64,000 bases of DNA, taken from the NCBI GenBank assembly GCA_015039465.1, contig MU130567.1, positions 77,239-141,238 of the forward strand. The letters are read 5' to 3'. A program made the translations under genes and the position numbers. This document shows, piece by piece, positions 4,356 to 26,528 of the stretch. Each line of letters opens with the position of its first letter. Within the stretch, counting starts at the first letter, position 1. Under the pieces are notes generated by a model. It ran no database searches. It was not told the DNA's origin and saw only the letters and a program-made list of their open reading frames with translations. Source of the stretch: Phlegmacium glaucopus. Lineage: Eukaryota; Basidiomycota; Agaricomycetes; Agaricales; Cortinariaceae.

Positions 4356-4692
4356 GTCGCTTGGGTAGTGTAACAATAGTAGCAGCCGATCATAGCCCCG
4401 ACAATAATGAGAGCCGTTTCGAAGTTCCTTGTAGGAATAAAGCTTTGGATGGAATAGGGATTTGGATTGTGATCAGGATGATCCTAATCAACGAGGTGAT
4501 GAACAAACGTGAGGGAGAAGTTGGAGCAACAACAACCTTGTCTGACACAAAAATTTAGACTCCAGCCAAACTCAGATCTTGCGATGGTGGTTCAACTCAG
4601 TCGATATCTGTCTGACTGTCATCAACGCCGCGTCAACAATAATGAACAACCCCACTCTCAATATATCGGATCATCCAATGTATTGTATTTAT

Positions 4693-4727
4693 AAAGGAAT
4701 ACTTTGGATCATCCAGAGTATTCCTTT
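4693..4727. repeat. Perfect 11-bp inverted repeat (hairpin)
   Basis: AAAGGAATACT at 4693-4703 pairs perfectly with AGTATTCCTTT at 4717-4727 around a 13-nt loop, about 290 bp before the transposase start. It could be a regulatory or transposon-internal structure; no function can be assigned. Confidence 0.7.
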
Positions 4728-5016
4728 TTGTGGAGGCTACTCAATCTCTTGTTCACCATTCGTTGCTTCGTTTCATGGACCGGGAGCCCTTGTTTTTTTT
4801 TGGTTCCATCCACTCGCTCTCTTTCAGGGATGGTGCCAATGGGTCAACACCGCACCAACACCTTGTTTTCGTCGAGCAACAGGTTTCTTGGGTGCGTTGT
4901 TCTGTTTCATTCTTTGAGATACTGTGGCTAATATAAATGGCCACAGACTTTGTCGTCCACTCCCTACAAGTGTTCTGGTTTACCACTGCACTTTCCTCCC
5001 TTTCCTAACCGATACC

Positions 5017-8000
5017 ATGCCGGTCTGCTTCTGTATTGCGGCAGGCTGCTCCACTGCTGGAGGCATTCATCCCGTTTCTCGTGAACCCCTTGGGAGAAAG
5101 GTCGATGGCCGCACGTTCCTAGCCCATAAAAACGCCGACAGACGGGCGGCCCTTTGTACTGCACTGCAGAATACTGAAGCCACCGTCGACAGTCAGCTCG
5201 AAGAGATCACGGCACATCTTTCAGCAAGTGTGCTCGCAGATGAAGTTTCCGGACCGCCTCAGAACCCTGGCGGCTCACTTTGGTCGAGACTTGACAGTTC
5301 TGAGGATTACTCACCCAGAGATAAAAGTTCTACATCTGAACGAACACAAACCCAGTCATCAATACCGTTACCAGCTGCTCAAAATTCTCATCCAAGTTCG
5401 CATCCCCAAAATTCTCATCCAAGTTTGCATCCCCAAAGTCGTAGTGCCACCTCCTTGCACTCTCCACCTCTTCAAGCCGGTTCGAAGCGCTCTCGAGAGG
5501 CTGCCATCCTCGCGTGCTTGACTGATATTGAAGTAGAGGTCGACTCTTTCCGTCATGAAGCCCAGGACCACCTTATCCATCTAGGCCGACCACCCTCCTC
5601 TGGTCCACCCACTTCCTTTCCTCACGCGGACTTGTTACAGCTATCCAATGATCTCAAATCTCAATTGGAGACAATAACGTTTAAGACGCCGGCTGTTCTC
5701 ACACTCAAGGACTCAATTATGCGCAAGTTGCAAAATATCGACTTCAAAGTGACAACTGCAAAGAAAGCTTGGAATCAGGAGCTATCTGACATCAAGGCCA
5801 TGAAGACACCCAACTATGGGCTCCCTCATGAAACAGGTAATATTAGTTTTCATTAATGTTCAAATTTATATACCGACCATCCTCTACTAGGCCATCATTT
5901 CAAACCCCTCCTTCAAAATGTCAACCCAGTGCTTCAAGTGGCTTTCTTCATGATTACCGTATGTCATGTTTTGCTTGGTGTGAGCCGTCGCGGTTGCACG
6001 TTTATGTTGAGGATGGTCCAATACATCATTCACCTGTCACTTCTTCGCCTCGGCCCCAATCTATCCCAAGGAGACGAAAAACTCCTCGGCGACATCCCAA
6101 CCGACCCTCGTGCAACCGAAAAGGCTTTTTCCCTTGATAACAAAACCACGATCCTTGCTGTCTGTCCAAACCCCAACTGTCATTTCACATATGAGCCAAC
6201 CTTCAAGGCAGATTCTCCTATTCCTATCTATCCCGATATGTGCAATCATCGTGAATTTTCAGGTGCAAAGAAGTGTGGCACACCTCTTCTCAAACCACGA
6301 CGTGTGGACGGACACACAATATACCTCCCGATTAAGCCCTTTGTCGCCTTCAGTTTCAAGGACTGGTTGGGTGGCCTGTTGTCACATTCTGGGTTTGAGG
6401 GAAAGATGGACAATGCCTGGGCATCATACAAAGACAGGTCAACTCCCCCAAAGGAAATGAAGGATATTTTTGATGCCGAAATCCTACGTAACTTCAAGGG
6501 ATTTGATGGACAGCACTTCAGTGCTGGTGGCGATGAAGGCCGGTACATCTTTTCCCTTTGTGTGGACTACTTCAACCCACTGGGCAACAAACAGGCTGGG
6601 AAGAAGAAGTCTATCGGCCTGATATCACTCGTTTGTCTCAATCTTCCTCCAGAAATGCGTTATAAACCAGAAAACATGTTTCTATTTGGGATCATTCCAG
6701 GTCCAAATGAACCCCCTTTAACCTGTCTCAATCATTACCTTCGCCTACTCGTAGACATGCTGTTGGAATTTTGGTACAATGGCATTCGTTTTTCTCGCAC
6801 TGCTGCCTATTATTACGGGAGGGTCGTTCAGTGTGCTCTCATATGTCTAGTCTCCAATCTCCCTGCAGCTCGTAAAACCAGTGGCTTTGCATCAATTCAC
6901 CATACGCAAATGTGTGCAATGTGTCACTGCACACAACGACCAGAAGATCCCTTGAATGATTCATTTGCAACCTTAGGCAAGCAACGAACGAATGAAGACA
7001 TCCGCAATTCAGCTCAGGTTTATCTCAATGCTGAGAACGAGAAGGACAGATCCGAGGCTGTCCATAACACTGGGATACGGTGGTCCGAATTATTCCGCCT
7101 TCCATATTTTGATACCTCTTGCTTTGTCGTCGTTGACGCCATGCATAACTTATTTCTTGGCTTGGTCCAAGAACATTTCGACATTCTCGGAATTCGATTG
7201 AACAATACGAACAGCAAAACAACACCATCTATCGTCGTTGATATTCCGGAAGGGTCGATCAATAGGCTAAACATCCATGAATGCAAGAGTGTCACTCGCT
7301 TGATCAATATCCTGGAAGCTCCTATCAAAAAAGAATTGAAGTCAGGAGCTGGGTATGACGTGTACTTCAAGCGATTATTTCCCCTACATCGAGCAGCACT
7401 CGAGTTAGTCTGTACATCGGTTGGCGCTCCCTTGAAGCGGAATTCCGAACATATCAAAAAAAGTAAACTCAACAAACCTGAATTCATTCACTCAATTCTC
7501 GCATGGGTGAGTATTGATACATACATTTCTAAACACAGACTCTTATGCTTACATCTTATCTATATAGCGACTCACCCAAACTGAAACTCCTCAGAATTTT
7601 ACCAGTGGGGCTATTCTTACAGCTCAGGAGATGGCTGAGATCCGATCCGACATTGAAAACATGATCACACCTTCCTGGCTCACATCAGTTCCGACCAACC
7701 TCGGTGAACCAAGCCACGGCAAACTCAAGGCTGACCAATGGCGGACACTTGGTACAACTTACCTCCCTATTTCACTTATTCGCCTTTGGGACCAGTTGGA
7801 AGACAGTAGCGACAAGCATTCCCAGCAATGTAAGAAGTTGCTCGAAGTCACGCTGTCTCTAATCTCAGCAGTTGTCATCGCCTCCTCTCGGACCACTTCG
7901 AAGGAGAAAGCTGATCTCTATCTTCATTACATGCAAAACTACCTCCAAGGACTTCACGAATTGTTTCCTCAATATAGATTCCTTCCAAATCAGCATATGG

Positions 8001-12695: not shown

Positions 12696-13800
12696 CACCT
12701 TAGGTTCCCACCCCCCCTGTCATATTAGTTGACATCAATCGATCACATCATGTCATCCCGTGTGTATCCGAATCCCTTATTCTCCCTTACCCTCCGTGAT
12801 TCCAGTCCGTAGGTAGTCACTTGTAGACTGAGACTGGGGCACAGATAAGACAAGATATAGATTAGAGATTAAGATATAGATTAGACATAAGATATAGATT
12901 AAGACAATGATAAGAGATAATAGATTAGACGAGATTGCCGTTATCTTGTTCAGGCACACTCTCAGAGATGATGCCGCCCGTTGTCTCTACGTTGCCTGTC
13001 GGTATCTGTCCACACTGCCATTGCGCCCTTTCCTTTTGTGTCCCCGCTGACAGGTCTGTGCATTCTCACTTACTCCTTCCCTTTCTGGTGTTCCCCCGCC
13101 TTGTCCCATCCCGTCCCTTCCCTAAATAGCTTTGCCCCATCCTCCCATCCCTTCCCTAAATATCTTTGCCCCGTCCTCCACATTCCCTTCCTCCCTCTGC
13201 AATCACTCCCCTTCCCCTCTTCCCTTCTGTCCTTTGTGGTTTTCTTAAAATAATACTACTATACTTCTTTATTCATAGTATATTCAATTAATTATGCTAT
13301 TCATGCTCACTAGCAAGGCAGAGGGAACAGGGGTATGTCTGGAAAGGAAATGGTTCATATCCATAAGCGTACTGGAGATGAACATCCATCAATGGCGCAG
13401 TGGCACCAACCTGAACCCCGAATAAGCATCCCCACCCGAATAATACACTATGTCACCCAAATAAACATCTTTAACCGAGTAGGCACCCTAGGACTCTGAA
13501 ATGGTTCATTTCCACTGAACCCAATTAAGTCCCATCAGTGGCGCCCAACCCGATTATCAACCCGAATAAGCTGTATATCCCTTATACAATTGCAATCTCG
13601 AAACAGTAAACATCCTTATTCGGCAGAGAAAGATAGTGACACAGAAATATTCGAAACAGGCACTCAGTCATCCTCGGGAACAATCTCCATACTCTTCGGA
13701 ACTCGACGCTTACGGGGCCACTCCTCTTCATCCTCGTCGTCCTCTTCACCATCATCCTCGGCATCATCATTCACGGCATTCTTCTTTCCCTTGCGTGGCC
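12696..13800 (+). repeat. Left arm of a ~1.1-kb inverted repeat
   Basis: It begins CACCTTAGGTTCCCACCCCC and matches the reverse complement of 20016-21126 almost throughout. Matching parts are an AT-rich stretch of ATAGATTA-type repeats (12840-12925), a C/T-rich stretch (13020-13250) and a low-complexity run of CCGAATAA-like motifs (13420-13570). Its inner end overlaps the 3' end of the gene at 13668-15870. A third copy of the same family ends at 24547. All three diverge right after the sequence AACCTAAGGTG, so this is probably a true element terminus. Confidence 0.85.
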
Positions 13801-15870
13801 TCTTGATCCCACGATCCTTGCGTGGTTTGCGTGTCTTCACAGGAACCGTGCTGTCATCCTGTTTCTTCCACAGCTCCTCGCGACGTCTCTTTACTTCAAG
13901 AGGACTGAGTTTGACAAATTTGCAGTTACCATCATTGATTGCATCCAGCAAACGTCGAAGGCTGGGAAGCGATGTCGAAAGTTGGCTTGGATTGACAAGC
14001 TTCTCGAAGGTCCAACCCTGAAGTTCAACCCTGTATTTTTGAATAATGAGCTCATCGTAGTTAGCGTATTGCATCACTGCCTTTTCATCACAGGTTATCT
14101 CAACTTCGGAAGGTCAAGATGTCAGTGCCAAGACACAGTACATATGTAGAAGAGGCCTACCGAGCAAGTTCCCAATTTTCTCTCTGATTTGGCGCTTCAT
14201 GTCATCTGCTTTCTGTTTTGAAGTTCGGTTCAAATCTAGATGATGCCATGATTCCTATCTCGGATGCCAAGGTGGATGATAATAGACTTACTAACAACAT
14301 CACACCCTGCAATTGCAAACGCCTCCAACTTAGCACCAATGAATGCCAAGTCCCACAGCTTGTGAAGGGGGACGGCAGTGGGCATGTAGTTCATAAGCGC
14401 CTCGGATGTAAAAAACCATACAGGATTCATATAGTAACTTGGAGTATTATGGACAACGGCAGAAGAATGCCTCGATGCCCACGTGAACATTAAGACCCTT
14501 GAGCTGATAATGAAACAATTAGATGAGAATTTACATGGAAAATAGGACACCACTTACCAAATGGCGGATAGTCTGAAGAGTTGCTGTGACATCTTGGACA
14601 CGTGCCTGTGCCGTTGGGCGCTTGCGATCGGTATCATTGACTTCGTGTGCAGCAACAATTTCAGCACGCTCAGCCTCATCCAGCTTGTCATACTCTTCCT
14701 TGAATGCCTCAGAATGGAGTACAGATAATGTTGGGGTTTCGCCATCTGTGACCAGTGAGAAGTAGATAGGAAGAAAATGAATGTGATGACGCACTGTCAC
14801 GTAACTCCTGTGCCTTCATTGACAAGAAGGCATTATGTGGATTGACCTTTGTCTGCTTGCACACGAGATGGACGCCACTTTGAAAAAACAGGTCAAGAAA
14901 ATAGCGTTGTTTTTTGTTGAAACGACAAGCCAGATCTGTGGCCAATGTCAAGGTGGAGGCTTTCCATTCACGAACAGCATCATCAATGTCTTCCTGGCGC
15001 TTGCGTGATGCAGCAGACCTCGCTTTCCGTTAGGCATCACTCAGAGGGGCCCTTTTTGAGATGGTGTGGCGCTTGCATGAAGAAGGGATGCGAAGTGAAT
15101 TTGCAAAAGGCATTTTTTTGCAGCCATTATTTCACATTCTTTTTATTAGAGGTACAACTGAGAAGGGTCGACGCAAAAAAATATATGAATTGAATATACA
15201 AGAACCAAAAAAAGCCATATGAACAGGATCAAGTAGACTAAACTCACTATGAACAAGATGGCATAGACTAAACCTCGCTACGAACAAGATTGTATAGACT
15301 AAACCTCGCTACGAACAGGATTGTATAGACTAAACCTCGCTACAAACAAGATCCCATAGACTAAACCTCACCTGCACTAACCATTGAAATGATAAGGCGA
15401 TCAATCAGGGTTGAAGATACACCAACTTGCTCCAATTCTGTGGCCCACAATGAAATAGGAAGGTTGCGACGAATGACATCCAGGGTACTGCTCAGGTGCG
15501 TGATATTGTGATTTTCCAGAAAGTGTGTCAAACTAGTGGTCTCCCAAGTAGTAGTTGATACTTCAGGTTCGCCAGGACCCTCAGAAGGGTTAGTGAATAA
15601 CCTACGGGCAATTGGCTTCTGACGAGATGGTGAGGCAAAGGCATTATGGCGGGGAGAAGCAGATGTAAGGGAAAAACAGTCAAAGTGATCATGCAAGGCC
15701 AGGGGTGATGCGATGTAAGAAGCAGGTGGAGTGTGATGGGCAATACAACGAGGGGGTGAAGCAGTGTGATGGGCAATGTGAGGAGTAGGAGAACCGTGAC
15801 AGGATGCAGATCCAGCTTGGCAACGACTGACATTGACGTTGGAATCAGTGCCGTCCATGCTAGTTGACAT
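13668..15870 (-). CDS. Mobile-element-associated hypothetical protein (acidic tail), multi-exon
   Basis: Several minus-strand open blocks read as one gene. An N-terminal exon starting MSTSMDGTDSN (15870) is Ser/Pro/His-rich and ends LIDRLIISMVSAG. A middle exon (about 15030-14800) reads DDAVREWKASTLTLATDLAC then HLVCKQTKVNPHNAFLSMKA. Further exons are at about 14750-14560 (RAEIVAAHEVNDTDRKRPTA) and 14510-14290 (YYMNPVWFFTSEALMNYMP ... KLEAFAIAGCD). A final exon (14077-13668) holds ELQGWTFEKLVNPSQLSTSL and an acidic tail ending KSMEIVPEDD. Exact splice sites were not all resolved. I recognise the layout as a multicopy agaricomycete family near transposons, but no enzymatic domain. The large intron near 15370-15110 contains a 31-bp minisatellite. 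A truncated, inverted copy of the tail is at 20016-20153. Confidence 0.5.
15236..15376. repeat. Minisatellite, about 4.5 units of 31 bp, inside an intron
   Basis: Units beginning GACTAAACCTCGCTACGAAC repeat directly with no unique spacers. They occupy the intron directly after the first coding exon of the gene at 13668-15870. Confidence 0.85.
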
Positions 15871-15959: not shown

Positions 15960-17420
15960 GAGCAGTGGACCAGACCTTAGGTCAAGAGACTCCCTGTTGT
16001 TCGTTTAGGGAAGGTATAACCTTGACTTTTAACACACAGAGGTAAGGGGAAGGAATAGAGAAGAGAAGGAGGAGGATGAAGGTCTTGGAAGATGAATGAG
16101 GTATAAGACGAGGATGAGGATGAGCAAGAGAGAGTCTTCAGTAAGACTATAGCGGTTGAGGGATAGGGGATAGATTGACAGTAAGGGGCAAGAAAAGCGA
16201 ACTTAAGGGAGGAATTCACTGGAATTCCACTGAGATGATGACTGTGAACCAGGTAGTAAAGTTCTTGCCGGGGACATACCTGCGTAGTCGGTGTAGAGGG
16301 TAATACAGTTTCCGAAACAGTAACAACAACACCGATACCTGGGTGTTCAGAAGCGGAGTCGATAGATAGAACGGTATGGAGCGAGGACCTAGAGTGAGTC
16401 AGGGGATAGGAGTTAGTAGATGGAGAATAGAATAGTAGGTGACGGTTTTGGTAGTAAGTGTGTCATGGACTTCGGAAGGGTGGGAGAAATACTGTTAAAT
16501 CCTTCAGGTCCTCCTAGTGCTGATTCGTCCTTAACGTCTACTTAGTCGTCGTCTCCTAATAAGAGCGTCACACAGTTCACAATAGTTCCGACGCGTTGTA
16601 CCCTGGTACCCGTTCATCACAAAAAGAGCCCTTGTTCCGACGCACAATCCCCTGTGGGCTGAAATTGGGTTTGGAGTTGAGATCTTAGTATGTGGGGTGG
16701 AAAGGCTGCTGGAGGCTGGAAGGCAGGTTGAGGCGAAGGCAGTGGCCAACTGAGGCCTTAGGGCATCAAGGCGAGGCTGAGGCCAGGAGGCTAAGTGAGG
16801 CAGAAAATAAAGATAAAAAGTATAGCGTGGTGAAGAATAAATTAATTAATTAATAATAGCATAGTAAGGAAATAAATAAAATATAGAGGCAATACAGGTA
16901 TAATCATGAATTTGTGGGGGTCGGATCGTCCCTAGGGGTAGGAAAGGAGAAACCTAGGGGACGATCCATTCAGTGAACATCTATAGAAAAGACTTTATAA
17001 TAATTGAAACCTAGGGGACGATCGAACTGATTCAGTCGTAACGTCAACGGGATTGTGACTCGGTGATTACAGAAGGTATCCTGTGTAGTGTGACGCGGAA
17101 AGTTCACAACTGAGTCCTGGAAAGTGTAAAAACTGTACTGGTGTGCGGATACCTCAGCTATATAAAAACGATAACCTGATACATGTGACGGAAGAAAAGA
17201 AAAGAGAGCGTGAAACTGTGAAATGTCTAAAAAAATAACAAGGAAGAAGAAAAGGTAACAAGAAAAGAAGAGCGTCGACAGGAGAGAAATAGAAAGAAGG
17301 AAACTGTCGCGCATGAAACAAAGAAAAATAACAAAATGTATCGGAGTAGGAATCCCATATTTATGACGAGAAAACATGGTCCTATCCATCAAGTCAAGTT
17401 AAGTAAGAATGGGGGGTGAA
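15960..17420. other. Unassigned sequence flanking the assembly gap, with a hairpin
   Basis: There are purine-rich stretches (16030-16180) and a GAGGC-rich stretch (16700-16800). An inverted repeat at 16923-16970 (GGATCGTCC-CTAGG against CCTAGGGGACGATCC, one base different) has a third half-copy near 17010-17025. No supported gene is seen. A 140-codon minus-strand frame at 17392-16970 is low-complexity Phe/Ser/Leu text and is not called. Confidence 0.4.
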
Positions 17421-17942
17421 NNNNNNNNNNNNNNNNNNNNNNNNNNNNNNNNNNNNNNNNNNNNNNNNNNNNNNNNNNNNNNNNNNNNNNNNNNNNNNNN
17501 NNNNNNNNNNNNNNNNNNNNNNNNNNNNNNNNNNNNNNNNNNNNNNNNNNNNNNNNNNNNNNNNNNNNNNNNNNNNNNNNNNNNNNNNNNNNNNNNNNNN
17601 NNNNNNNNNNNNNNNNNNNNNNNNNNNNNNNNNNNNNNNNNNNNNNNNNNNNNNNNNNNNNNNNNNNNNNNNNNNNNNNNNNNNNNNNNNNNNNNNNNNN
17701 NNNNNNNNNNNNNNNNNNNNNNNNNNNNNNNNNNNNNNNNNNNNNNNNNNNNNNNNNNNNNNNNNNNNNNNNNNNNNNNNNNNNNNNNNNNNNNNNNNNN
17801 NNNNNNNNNNNNNNNNNNNNNNNNNNNNNNNNNNNNNNNNNNNNNNNNNNNNNNNNNNNNNNNNNNNNNNNNNNNNNNNNNNNNNNNNNNNNNNNNNNNN
17901 NNNNNNNNNNNNNNNNNNNNNNNNNNNNNNNNNNNNNNNNNN
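17421..17942. other. Assembly gap (522 N)
   Basis: Run of N. It lies between the two arms of the 12696/21126 inverted repeat, so the true distance and content between the arms are unknown. Confidence 1.
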
Positions 17943-20015
17943 ATTCAGTTATCAGAGTAGGAAATTCAATGAAGCGCATGACGCAATAGCAAGCGCCTGA
18001 AACGATAGAAGCGCCAGATGAGCAGATCGCATAAAGCTTTGGCGCTTGAAGGGAAATTTAAGATAGCTCCTTTGGATGTAATTGGGGAGGCTTGATACAA
18101 TGATGAACGCCAGACTAGGGTGGCGTCCATGTAGTTTAACCTCGGGTGGCGCTCCCCAAGAACAAGTAAAAAGGAGCTTTTAAGGTCAGAGATGAGCAGA
18201 ATGCTTCGCCAGTGGCCTTCGAGTTGACCAATGATGTTAAAGAAGTGGTCTTTAATGGGGTTTCCTGCCCAAGCGAAGCGTAGGTTATCCACTTGGGTGC
18301 CTTAAACTCAATTGGGTTAGCAAGAACCTGCTCGGATAAGGTTGTTGACGAAATAACCAGCTGGGATGATATAGTGGTCTCGGCCAGAACGTTGCTGCAA
18401 AGTTTATGGGATCAAAACTCTGGCCGTCTCTTGTTCACCTTCCCTCCTACTTGCTACAGGTACTTAATACAAGAGTAACAAGCTAAGCCAGGTGCGGGTA
18501 TGCGAAACAGTAATGTAAAAATTGAGCTAGTGCGAAGTCACATGAGCCCAGTAGTTTGGTAACGAAGGAATAGGGGATAGAATAAAAATAGAAGTGATAA
18601 GTAAGGAGGTCAGTTGAATGGCCTCCTGTTTCGAAGGAGATGATAAAATAATAATATATATGGAAAGTTAAAAGAAATTAAGTTGAAAACAACATGGACC
18701 ATGATCAAACCAGTGAAAGGGATGCGTATGCGAGCCGTGAAGGACCGCGAGATTAAAGAGAAGCTGTGTGAAGATGTGGTTGTGAAGGAAAGAAATGGTT
18801 AAGTCCGGTATTGATAGAGAAAGCTGAAGATACGTCGAAGTATGAGGTGCGAAGAGGAACGGGGGTGCGTTGGATAGTTACGAAGGTCGTAGGAGTGATG
18901 TGCGAAGGTTATGCGAGGCCTATATCATGTTGTGTGATGTGCGAAGGATGTGCGACAACCGCGAATGAGAGTGCGAGTGAAGTTGGTACCCGCGAGACAT
19001 CCGCGTATACTGCGAAGTTGTTAAATCGCAAAAATAACCAGTTTACGAACCTAGAGGCTATATGGATCCTATCACCGTCTACACCTCTTTCATTGCATTC
19101 CTGATTCCACACGCACAGCTTGATTATCATGTATTTTGCTGCAATTATGGGTTCCCAATTTATTGACAATATCCTGCTTCAAAACAATCTCACTATGCAT
19201 GGCAGGATCTCGCGAAAGACAGCCCAGCTTTGGTATACTCAAATTTGTTGTAAATTTGTTGTTAAGCCGCTTCATTCTAAAATATATGTCTATAGCACAG
19301 AGGCACTTTCTACTCCAGAGAAAATTAGGACCACGACAGCCAGTGAGAGTTCAACTCCAGCAGTCACTGTGGCTCTCAGTGATATCCTCCACTACTGGGA
19401 CGTCGACAACTGAAGGACCATTCACACTATCCGCATCAAGGACTATATCTCAAGCGCTCTGAAAGGTATGTACTATATTCTCACTAACATCATTGACGAG
19501 GAGCAGGATGATGGTTCTGCTGATCAGGAGATGCCGAGGGACGTTATGGCAGAATGGGTTGACTCCTGAGTTGGTGGGTGAACAAGGACAAGTTCTATCC
19601 AATCTGTGGAGCTCCGTACCCTCTATGTTAATGCATATTTTCAAAGTAATAATGAAATTATATCCAGCTTTATCTCTCCAGTATGTGAGTGAGCCACGAC
19701 ACTGAGGAAAGTTATAATTGTGTGACTGGTTCTTGACAATCATTGCGCATGCCTTCTCCAAGTCCTTTTCTTCTCTGTATGAAAATTCCACTTTTGTTTC
19801 CCAATCCATGCAACATTTTATGTCAATGTCTTACATTGAATTCAAGCATCTTTAGAGCTCTTGATTCAGTATTTGCACTGTCTGTTGACTGGTGGACAGT
19901 TCTGGAGGCGCTAGATATTTCAATTTGCGCTGAATTTGATTTCCACAAAGGATATTTAGGAACACATTTCTTTGATCAATTTCTGCCTGGTGAGATGGTT
20001 AATCTTGTCAGGAAG
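17943..20015. other. Unassigned repeat-rich sequence
   Basis: Minus-strand open frames at 18292-17966 and 19809-19450 (MDWETKVEFSYREEKDLEKA) look protein-like, but I cannot assign them to a family. Near 18893-18955 the motif GTGATGTGCGAAGG occurs twice, as in some long terminal repeats. No complete gene is supported. Confidence 0.35.
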
Positions 20016-21126
20016 GGGCCACGCAAGGGAAAGAAGAATGCCATGAATGATGATGCCAAGGATAATGGTGAAGAGGACGACAAGGATGAAGAGGAGCAGC
20101 CCCGTAAGCGCCAAGTTCTGAAGAGTATGGAGATTGTTCCCGAGGATGACTGAGTGCCTGTTTCAAATATTTCTGTGTCACTATCTTTCTCTGCCGAATA
20201 AGGACATTTACTGTTTCAAGATTGCAATTGTATAAGGGATATACAGCTTATTTGGGTTGATAATCGTGTTGGGCACCACTGATGGGACTTAATTGGGTTC
20301 AGTGGAAATGAACCATTTCAGAGTCCTAGGGTGCCTACTCGGTTAAAGATGTTTATTCGGGTGACATAGTGTATTATTCGGGTGGGGATGCTTATTCGGG
20401 GTTGGTGCCACCGCACCATTGATGGATGTTCATCTCCAGTACATTTATGGATATGAACCATTTCCTTTCCAGACATGCCCCCTGTTCCCTCTGCCTTGCT
20501 AGTGAGCATGAATAGCATAATTAATTGAATATACTATGAATAAAGAAGTATAGTAGTATTATTTTAAGAAAACCACAAAGGACAGAAGGGAAGAGGGGAA
20601 GGGGAGTGATTGCAGAGGGAGGAAGGGAATGTGGAGGACGGGGCAAAGATATTTAGGGAAGGGACAGGAGGACAGGGAAAAGCTATTTAGGGAAGGGACG
20701 GGATGGGACAAGGCGGGGGAACACAGAAAGGGAAGGAGTAAGTGAGAATGCACAGACCTGTCAGCGGGGACACAAAAGGAAAGGGCGCAATGGCAGTGTG
20801 CCTGGAGGCGGGACAGATACCGACAGGCAACGTAGAGACAACGGGCGGCATCATCTCCGAGAGTGTGCCTGAACAAGATAACGGCAATCTCGTCTAATCT
20901 ATTATCTCTTATCATTGTCTTAATCTATATCTTATGTCTAATCTATATCTTAATCTCTAATCTATATCTTGTCTTATCTGTGCCCCAGTCTCAGTCTACA
21001 AGTGACTACCTATGGACTGGAATCATGGAGGGTAAGGGAGAATAAGGGATTCGGATACACACGGGATGACATGATGTGATCAATTGATGTCAACTAATAT
21101 GACAGGGGGGGTGGGAACCTAAGGTG
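20016..21126 (-). repeat. Right arm of the ~1.1-kb inverted repeat
   Basis: Reverse complement of the left arm at 12696-13800, with a few small indels (for example an extra ~30 bp around 20660-20690). Its first ~140 bp encode on the plus strand the same acidic tail as the gene at 13668-15870, ending KSMEIVPEDD at 20153. The 5' part of that gene is not next to it, so this is a truncated copy. Confidence 0.85.
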
Positions 21127-21316
21127 CCTTATCGCCACTACTTCCAGGTCCTGAGTGCCATCACGACACTCAAATTCAACTTGGGGGTAATCCGTGCTAG
21201 GTAAGTTGTTGAGTATTCTGGAATTCAAAAAACTGATATGTGATTAGATGATCCAACAACAAAAATCTTGACTTACAAAACATACTCTCTGTGGAAGCCT
21301 GGGAGGCCCAATTTCA

Positions 21317-22867: not shown

Positions 22868-23480
22868 ATGATGTTTTATCCCCTGTCACTCTTTCCTTTC
22901 ACCCTATTAAACTTAGGATGGATAACAAACACGACTCGCGCTGTCACTGACTCGAGAGAAACTCCAACCTACGACTTCGTCGTCATCAGCAGAGGTAACG
23001 TGTATGTGGATCTCGTTTTTGCTCAGGATTTGCTTTTGATTGATGGATAATTGAAGAGGATTGGCAGTTTCAGGCCGTCTTGCTGAAGATCCTTCGATCA
23101 CTGTCGCCGTGTTGGAAGCGGGGGCAAATGTTGAACACCTTCCTGAGGTACGTAGGCCTAACCCCCCTTCCGCGTATCCATTTTACTCAGAATAATCAGG
23201 TGTTTATTCCCAGTCTCATCGGAACAGGAGAATCCTTTATGACTCTGAACTGGGCTTATCGAACAGTACCACAAGAACACTTGGGCAACCGATGGTCCTC
23301 ACTAACTCCACCGTAACTCGTATCATATGGGCAGCACCCTCCCCTTCACCTCTGCAAGCGCGTGGAGTATAAAGCATCCGATGGACAAACATACGAGATC
23401 AACGTCAGGAGGGAAGTCATATTGTCAGCGGGTGCAATAGGCAGCCCCAAGGTCTTAGAGCTATCTGGAGTGGGGAATTC
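22868..23480 (+). pseudogene. 5' fragment of a GMC oxidoreductase (aryl-alcohol-oxidase-like)
   Basis: The predicted start MMFYPLSLFPFTLLNLGW is signal-peptide-like. TPTYDFVVISRG follows, where intact GMC enzymes have the dinucleotide-binding Gly-rich motif. Then come LAEDPSITVAVLEAGANVEH (about 23068-23130), IPSLIGTGESFMTLNWAYRT (about 23210-23270) and EINVRREVILSAGAIGSPKV with LELSGVGN (to 23480), in different frames separated by plausible introns. GMC enzymes are secreted FAD-dependent alcohol/sugar oxidases. About half the enzyme is present; it is cut off just before a poly(A) run and the mirror-image block. The SRG in place of GGG also argues that it is non-functional. Confidence 0.7.
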
Positions 23481-23536
23481 AATTTTTATATTAATCATTT
23501 CGACTTTTATGTGTCGGTTTTACTGAGTTCGATTGT

Positions 23537-23561
23537 AAAAAAAAAAAAAAAAAAAAAAAAA
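23537..23561 (+). repeat. A25 homopolymer at the edge of the mirror block
   Basis: Twenty-five A residues directly abut the first base of the reversed block at 23562. It could be a retroelement tail or an assembly breakpoint. Confidence 0.9.
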
Positions 23562-24338
23562 GTTACTATTCTCTATTATCTAATCTGCTCTAACGGCAAT
23601 AGAACAAGTCCGTGTGAGAGTCTCTACTACGGCGGGCAACAGAGATGCAACGGACAGCCATAGACAGGGCGGAGGTCCGTGTGACGGTAACGCGGGAAAG
23701 GAAAACACAGGGGCGACTGTCCAGACACGTAAGAGTGAATGAGGAAGGGAAAGACCACAAGGGGGCGGAACAGGGTAGGGCAGGGAAGGGATTTATCGAA
23801 ACGGGGTAGGAGGTGTAAGGTGAGCCCAAACACAGAAGGGAGGACGTCGGGGTGGAACGTACAAATTCAACGGCAGGGCGGTAAGAAGTGTGGGACACGA
23901 CAGTAAGACAGATGATGGGCTCCAATCACAAGGAATAAGGGGAGTTCAAGTACGGAAAACGAGTTACGAGAAACGTCGATGGTTTGCTGCCACGGGGGAG
24001 TCGCTCGGGGCGTGAGTACGTTCAAGCAACTGCAACCCGACTGTATCCAAGTAAAGGTCCGTGAGGGTGAAACGGAAAAAACCGATTTCAGACTGAATGG
24101 GCTTTATGTCTAATTAGTGTCTAGAATCAATACCTCGATACGGCGACTGTACGTTTTACGGGAAAAGGAAAAAGGACCTAAGGAGGGTGGGACGTTCGAG
24201 GAGAGATCACGTGTGTTGGCGGTACAGAGAGGGAGTAGAGAAGGGTAGGGGCTACAATGGAACGGTAACAGTACCCCGAGAGAGTGCCACAGTGACAGGT
24301 GACACCATGGTCAAAACGGTTACTCGCCGTATGTGCAG
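23562..24338. other. 777-bp block reversed in place without complementing
   Basis: Read backwards, 23562 to about 23800 equals the repeat arm ending at 20917, base for base apart from a few differences. For example 23594-23613 CGGCAATAGAACAAGTCCGT is the letter-reversal of 20866-20885 TGCCTGAACAAGATAACGGC. At 24339 the same repeat family resumes in normal orientation at exactly the next base (TCTTAATC, matching 20918). String-reversing only this block therefore restores a continuous third repeat copy. Beyond about 23800 the reversed text is not similar to the other two copies. Confidence 0.9.
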
Positions 24339-24547
24339 TCTTAATCTATATCTTATGTCTAATCTATATCTTAATCTCTAATCTATATCTTGTCTTATCT
24401 GTGCCCCAGTCTCAGTCTACAAGTGACTACCTATGGACTGGAATCACGGAGGGTAAGGGAGAATAAGGGATTCGGATACACACGGGATGACATGATGTGA
24501 TCAATTGATGTCAACTAATATGACAGGGGGGGTGGGAACCTAAGGTG
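24339..24547 (-). repeat. Third copy of the 12696/21126 repeat terminus
   Basis: Nearly identical to 20918-21126, ending GGTGGGAACCTAAGGTG. Its continuation to the left is the mirror-image block. Confidence 0.85.
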
Positions 24548-24854
24548 GTTTCGCCACAGGAATTGGAGATCTGTAAGAATGGCTGATAAACCTTCAAAGC
24601 TTGTGAATCAATACAATTTCTTTTTTTTAGAGCTATTACACAATAAATATCGCGACTGAGCTTGTAAATAGTCCTGCACCAGTGTACTTAACATCTCAAA
24701 TGTATCCCTGCTAAAAAGGGAACGCTCGTACCGTTGAATAACTTTAGGAACGTGATCAGATCCACAAGAGTGCAGTGTATGTACAGATATGTCCACCTCG
24801 CATGATATTAAACTTCCTTCGGGGCCGGGGGGGAAGAACATCTAATATCTGTAC

Positions 24855-26528
24855 TCAGTCAGCAGTGTACAAGGGTGGAAGATCCATCAATATGTCCGTC
24901 GTTGGAGTACTTGGGGGCATCCGAATCCCACTGTCTTCATGTAGTCGTGGGTTTGTGGGGGACCTGGTACCGTTATTCTGCATGGAAACCATATCTGGCG
25001 GTCCATCGCCCCGTAGTTGAGGTCCGAGCACAGCCAGCCCCTCCACCTGTCTGTTTGTTTCGCTGGGTAAAGTCAATGGGGAAGGACGTGACACTACGGG
25101 CGGCAGAGTAGGTAACAAGGGGTTGATTGTTACCAAAGGAGGTCTATGAAGGGGGGGAACATGACGTAGATTTGTTGTATTTGCAATAGCATCAGGCGAA
25201 GCATTGAGACTAGGGATTGGTCCATATCTGTGCCCTTTGGTGATCTGCGGGGCTTGAGAATGGGAAATACCACCCGATGGGGTATTTAGCATGGTGCTTG
25301 ACGGGTGTAGAGGAGGAGTATGATTAAAGGGCTGAGGCATGGAGTTAATAACAATTGCCTTTGCGCGTTTCTGGCGGCGGCGTAGGAGAAGAAATCCAAA
25401 GATAATAAAGACGGTGAGAGCAAGGCCGCCAACCACACCTCCAATGATAGCCCCGACTGGAGTAGAGCTCTTCCTTTGGGTTGATGTTCCGGAAACACTA
25501 CTACCAGTAGCGGAAGGGGTCACATATGGGGATGCAGATGCTGTTGTGGACGGTAATATTGTTGTGGACGGTAATGTCCCATTTTGGATTATGAGGTAGT
25601 GTATACTAAGAGGTGTTGTATTGTTGCCGCCATAATCCAATACATTCAACGTGTGAGGTCCTGCCGGAAGTTGTGCGATTTCAAAGAATTTTTGTTGAAA
25701 GCGTGCCTTTGTAATTTCCCCATATTGCACCTCAAAGTTGATCGGTGTTTGCCCATCAATGGAGTACGTTGCGACAGGGTGAATATAGTTTCCAATGAGT
25801 AAAAATCCATACCAGCTTAAAGAAACACCTGACATCACGACAAAGTAAGTCAGACGATAATCATTTACTGCGGTAGAGGCATACCAATGAAACTGAAATT
25901 TAATGTTGCGAGTCCACCGACAGATTCAGACTGACCATGACCAATAGCGTCTTCCGGTTCCGGAGTCAATAGATAACTCCACCCTGGTCCATACTGTAAC
26001 TGGGGGTCTCGATATTCGACAAGGATGATTTCCTGATCCAGTGGTACGCTAGCGGATGGAGCGTATTGAATATTATCAAACCAAAATGTTTGGTTTTGTA
26101 CTGTAGCATTGACAGTTATGATATGTGGCCCATCCGAAAGCGAAAGGTTGCTGCAAAAAACCTGCTGATTCTGTGGATTGTTGAAAGTAATATCTGTAAA
26201 GGTTGCATCCACATTGATCCTGATGTTGTCGATAAAGCACTGCCATGTTGGATCTAATACCCCGGAATTGTTGCGAATATCAAGGGTGCCAATTACTTCG
26301 ACCTGAGTTCCTGGACAATCGATTAACAACTTGATGTGGTTTGAAAAAATAGTGCTCACCATGAAATGTAAACGAAAGGCTTGCATCAGCTTGGGTGCCG
26401 TGGAGTGTACTTCGAAAAGGAGTACCAAAATCTCCTCGAGAATCCTGACTGCCTTGGTCTGAAAACCATGGTCCATTATACTGAATTCTTGGGTCAACGT
26501 CATCGACTATTATCCATCTTGTCGACAT
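24855..26528 (-). CDS. Single-pass membrane protein with two extracellular beta-type domains
   Basis: Exons 26528-26360, 26310-25885 and 25828-24855 join in phase to 522 aa. The N-terminal part has two similar segments (starting VDDVDPRIQYNGPWF and VEYRDPQLQYGPGWSYL), each followed by a beta-rich stretch (TQVEVIGTLDI; SLSWYGFLLIGNY). This suggests two carbohydrate-binding-like jelly-roll domains. A Ser/Thr-rich stalk follows, then the membrane helix IIGGVVGGLALTVFIIFGFL at about residue 325 with the stop-transfer LRRRQKR. A Pro-rich cytoplasmic tail follows. No signal peptide is visible at the chosen start, which is unusual for this family. This architecture is common in agaricomycetes and of unknown function; a wall- or sugar-sensing role is speculation. 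Confidence 0.8.

Follow-up and report, generated by a model that had tools for sequence, protein, structure and literature searches.

A block of 777 letters in the genome assembly of Phlegmacium glaucopus is spelled backwards without being complemented, and it is almost certainly a gap-filling artefact, in which extensions of both contig ends were written in reverse with a run of 25 A letters (A25) between them. The feature is a property of the assembly file and not a biological one: both extensions are reversed in place, the A25 run is fixed to one strand of the file, and the same layout is found at other gaps. Positions refer to the window, that is, the whole 64,000-nucleotide stretch analysed (contig C201:77239-141238), unless a contig or another locus is named, and whole-assembly searches covered 60.5 Mb in 259 contigs.

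Results

Repeat copies match the block only in letter-reversed form

The block belongs to the following arrangement of gap extensions, filler and repeat copies.

23483..23536, no strand: putative left gap extension, 54 letters, reversed without complementing (comparison with paralogue L044)
23537..23561, no strand: A25 filler for an unclosed gap (assembly-wide run counts, strand bias)
23562..24338, no strand: putative right gap extension, 777 letters, letter-reversed (alignment, in-place continuity, Markov statistics)
24339..24557, plus strand: onward part of this repeat copy, in normal spelling (alignment to the other copies)
20667..20917, plus strand: repeat copy in normal spelling, to which the reversed block aligns (alignment)
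12905..13148, minus strand: second normally spelled repeat copy (alignment)

When string-reversed and compared with the window by blastn, the block matches 20667-20917 at 98.0% identity over 252 columns (E 1e-124) and, on the minus strand, 13148-12905 at 95.3% over 256 columns (E 2e-112). As displayed, its best non-self match on both strands has E = 1.3. An earlier reading made from the letters alone (the sequence-only reading) had proposed a backwards, uncomplemented spelling from the similarity of the reversed start of the block to the repeat arm ending at 20917, and these alignments bear out both the spelling and the similarity. The same reading held that reversal in place would restore the repeat at its right edge; turned in place, the block indeed gives an unbroken repeat from 20667 via 20917/20918 to about 21138, the junction running directly into 24339. 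Normal spelling takes over at this point, 24338-24557 matching 20917-21138 at 98.2% and 24338-24548 matching 12905-12695 at 99.1%. Because the block starts and ends with G, limits of 23562-24338 and 23563-24337 are indistinguishable. Aligning the string-reversed block to the whole assembly, a check that the sequence-only reading had proposed, returned the two window copies only, a result that is no proof of rarity.

The reversed copy carries 11 letters that are absent from the copy at 12905-13148, and a C of the copy at 20667-20917 corresponds to a T in it. Differing from both in this way, it looks like a third real repeat copy whose letters were turned round, and not like a duplicate of either. 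The 11 letters are missing at 13010-13011 and present in the two other copies. The two normally spelled copies belong to an inverted duplication of 1.1 kb (20013-21126 and 12696-13804, 95% identity), of which the repeat at 23562-24338 is a third, partial copy. The repeat had no match in a phage collection.

A chance match to reversed letters is excluded, because 260 kb of the contig, with the blocks masked, gave nothing below E = 0.018 when letter-reversed and compared with itself. For the 518 letters at 23821-24338, which form the start of the reversed block, no homologue was found in the genome, and here word statistics show the back-to-front spelling. Under Markov models of the contig (orders 1 to 5) this part favours the reversed reading by 8.0 to 13.7 nats, while background stretches of the same length favour the displayed reading by a mean of 9 to 15 nats; from order 1 up to order 5, scores this low are reached by 10, 14, 14, 13 and 2 of 956 background stretches, respectively, with training masked at 23450-24360 only and with background stretches that overlap and include other reversed blocks.

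The reversal extends to the left of the A25 run

The gene left of the gap has a paralogue, L044, that is 97% identical and follows the window up to 23482. At 23483-23536 the displayed letters depart from L044, and the reversed letters match it at 53/53 positions, with an alignment score of 106 for the reversed form, 18 for the displayed form and 29 for the best of 500 shuffles. Reversal in place from 23483 gives 73/74 matches to the paralogue across the junction (49/74 as displayed), and 23483 is the best of all reversal starting points tried. The layout is thus normal to 23482, reversed at 23483-23536, A25, reversed at 23562-24338 and normal from 24339. The sequence-only reading had taken an A25 run as the left edge of the reversed block: the run is present, but it is not the edge of the reversed area, since the letters beyond it are reversed as well. 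As displayed, 23470-23562 finds only itself in the assembly.

Copies of the gene at 23060-23482 that are 96-97% identical lie on contigs C130, C237 and C53. By its motifs only, the gene resembles a GMC oxidoreductase; three frames of it in the paralogue L044 gave no match to Pfam. On the other side of the gap, 24855-25922 gave two weak membrane-segment matches to Pfam and nothing else.

The A25 run is a filler

Exact runs of A were counted over the whole assembly. There are 157 runs of exactly 25 on the plus strand and 1 on the minus strand, 0 and 1 of exactly 24, and 72 and 1 of exactly 26. This fixation to one strand (157 vs 1) and the sharp minimum length of 25 identify A25 as a filler and not as sequence; genuine DNA could not so strongly favour one of the two strands as written in a file. 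The observed ratio of A26 to A25 is 0.46, below the value of about 0.57 predicted for a fixed 25-letter filler that sometimes meets a flanking A, and under the filler model about 305 fillers are implied genome-wide. The run at 23537-23561 accordingly stands for an unclosed gap, and it lies inside the reversed area.

Further reversed blocks flank N gaps on the same contig

We scanned C201:1-260000 by comparison with its own letter-reversed form and by Markov score, block B below coming from the alignment and blocks A1 and A2 from the score. These three further letter-reversed blocks flank two N gaps, and the 260 kb contain no others.

Contig 75474-76215, no strand: block A1, letter-reversed, left of a 1023-N gap (Markov segmentation, coding, match to L025)
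Window 1..~2705 (contig 77239-~79943), no strand: block A2, letter-reversed, right of the 1023-N gap, its right edge placed within about 50 bases (Markov segmentation, paralogue L029)
Window 16246..17420 (contig 93484-94658), no strand: block B, letter-reversed, adjoining an N gap (alignment)
Window 17421..17942, no strand: assembly gap of 522 N

The 1023-N gap ends just before the start of the window. Block B, when reversed, matches contig 4494-4820 and 4816-5210 at 97-98%. At its left join, normal matching (84%) stops at contig 93483, corresponding to repeat position 4493, and reversed matching resumes from repeat position 4494; three additional letters stand at the join. The repeat in block B is present in many copies, and the copy here is interrupted by an insertion of 448 bp. 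As displayed, most of this inserted segment finds 14 more matches, with 40 of 107 candidates scored.

At order 5 the Markov score is -37 nats per kb for A1, -29 for A2, -36 for 23562-24338 and -15 for the region of B, against +32 for the remaining contig. Segmentation calls just the A1/A2 region at order 3, all three regions at order 4, and A1/A2, the block at 23562-24338 and part of B at order 5; the three regions were masked in training, and this evidence is weaker than the alignments. Weaker Markov candidates, for example contig 205757-206601 and 228057-228573, were not called by segmentation. To the right of the 522-N gap, neither segmentation nor the masked self-comparison showed any visible reversal. 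Altogether, reversed letters amount to 5,453 in the 260 kb (2.1%) of a contig that was not chosen at random.

Coding sequence is readable only backwards

Reversal lengthens the longest open stretch of A1 from 79 to 123 aa and that of A2 from 84 to 160 aa. The genome contains 87 matches to the 123-aa stretch of reversed A1, with up to 99% identity over the whole length, and over 734 bp of DNA reversed A1 and locus L025 are 99.5% identical. A WD40-like stretch is encoded by reversed A2; its paralogue (L029), 75% identical, lies on the same contig. Once A2 is turned round in place, the normal sequence to its right continues the same gene. In displayed form, A2 does not match this paralogue. In Pfam, two reversed frames gave weak WD40-like matches that all fall well short of the curated cut-offs (E 0.012 to 0.097), three other reversed frames gave none, and four displayed frames gave one chance-level match (E 0.07). 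Since this Pfam support is weak, it is chiefly the look of the sequence and the paralogue that justify the WD40 label.

The layout recurs elsewhere in the assembly

Searching the assembly with A1 as displayed gave 13 rows including A1 itself. A reversed segment is present in 9/9 of the non-self loci fetched, meeting N in 7 and A25 in 1; these loci are the best rows and were picked for matching reversed DNA, so that they do not sample gaps at random. In their segmentation, for which the three regions were again masked, N scores zero, so segments run through N. In L039 an A25 run at 2557-2581 lies near the end of the reversed segment, and in L034 the 3.4 kb examined contain a reversed segment but neither N nor A25. 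Reversed copies of the block B repeat are found at at least 25 other places when B is searched as displayed (40 of 107 candidates scored), a count made from 50 of 65 rows, those for the repeat part, paired by eye, leaving out the self row and the 14 rows of the inserted segment. Another search scored the best 40 of 779 candidates, and no ratio of normal to reversed copies is derivable from these numbers.

Eight loci taken from normal translated matches (L025-L032) all score normal overall. In one of them, L025, segmentation missed a short reversed piece: the locus is normal to 1965, reversed at 1966-2222 (97.7% identical to L026 over 257 bp when turned round) and followed by A25 at 2224-2248. 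An N edge in L027 looks normal, with no reversal. Some gap edges are therefore spared by the fault, as this N edge and the right side of the 522-N gap both look normal.

Discussion

The findings that mark a gap-filling artefact are a reversed stretch lying against a gap or filler, in-place continuity at the contig-facing edge and recurrence in the assembly, and all of these are observed. The sequence-only reading had named an assembly, gap-filling or file-handling error as the likely cause; our tests support this and single out the gap-filling kind. Under the reading that we prefer, a gap-filling step would have lengthened both contig ends at the gap, adding 54 letters to the left one and 777 to the right one. 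The two extensions would have failed to join, leaving a 25-letter filler between them that now appears as A25, and the letters of the extensions would have been written into the scaffold in reversed order without complementing. A single software step was presumably responsible.

Long-read flank extension of the PBJelly type fits best, and the chances that such a tool was at work are roughly even. PBJelly treats 25 or more N as a gap, extends its flanks with long reads and leaves a reduced gap open where the two sides fail to join (English et al. 2012, PMC3504050), and by default shorter gaps are inflated to exactly 25 (gapFinisher paper, PMC6733440); hybrid assemblies of fungi made with ALLPATHS-LG and PBJelly exist (PMC7550596). 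The likeness lies in the extension of both contig ends and in extensions that do not meet and leave a residual gap. As to the default length of exactly 25, the fillers here have a sharp minimum of 25 but are spelled A, whereas the placeholder of PBJelly should be N. The method as described also reverses no letters. Titles and the starts of abstracts yielded no literature report of such a letter-reversal fault.

Other readings of the block fare poorly against the same observations. The displayed letters themselves, together with the normal spelling in other copies, would speak for a true reversal of 777 bases without complementing, brought about in the DNA by some unknown mechanism of recombination or replication, which we regard as extraordinarily improbable: no process would put reversed stretches at N gaps and beside strand-biased A25 runs, reversed letters lie on both sides of the run, and no process would leave coding stretches readable only backwards. 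The least credible reading of all is an ordinary inversion or inverted repeat mistaken for a reversal. The window does hold inverted copies of the repeat, but blastn covers both strands, and the unreversed block matches neither beyond chance while the reversed block matches at 98%; a chromosomal inversion, which would give the reverse complement, was rejected on this comparison. Mirror repeats, too, read alike in both directions within a single strand. Here, by contrast, the block is 777 letters long, and this class was rejected because the partners lie in distant copies, about 2.6 and 10.4 kb away, and the block ends at a gap filler.

Next to a repeat, an A25 run resembles a retroposon's poly-A tail, in which case the adjoining block would be an insertion. 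Retroposon tails would vary in length and fall equally on both strands, whereas the exact runs show a sharp minimum length and the ratios of 157/1, 0/1 and 72/1 for A25, A24 and A26, and the letters left of A25 are the reversed sequence of the neighbouring gene copy; retroposition was therefore rejected as an exceedingly improbable source. A later reversal of the letters, during copying or preparation of the file and not in assembly, gains some room from our having consulted a single copy of the assembly, and is still very unlikely. The reversed pieces, which range in size from 54 to about 2705 letters, start and stop at gap extensions beside normal sequence in the same record, and file handling has no knowledge of where extensions end.

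As a gap-filling artefact, the reversed block is a matter of data quality and says nothing new about DNA. Reversed stretches of this kind hide genes, split repeats and mimic novel sequence for gene finders and for models that read sequence. A simple screen, in which an assembly is letter-reversed and aligned to itself and its gaps and exact A25 runs are inspected, would reveal such stretches. It is possible, although we would sooner bet against it, that some gap-filling chain in wide use has a fault not yet reported, which left letter-reversed stretches at many gaps of several public hybrid assemblies and not just of the present one. If so, genes and repeats at such gaps would be missing from annotation and would appear as seemingly unique "orphan" DNA.
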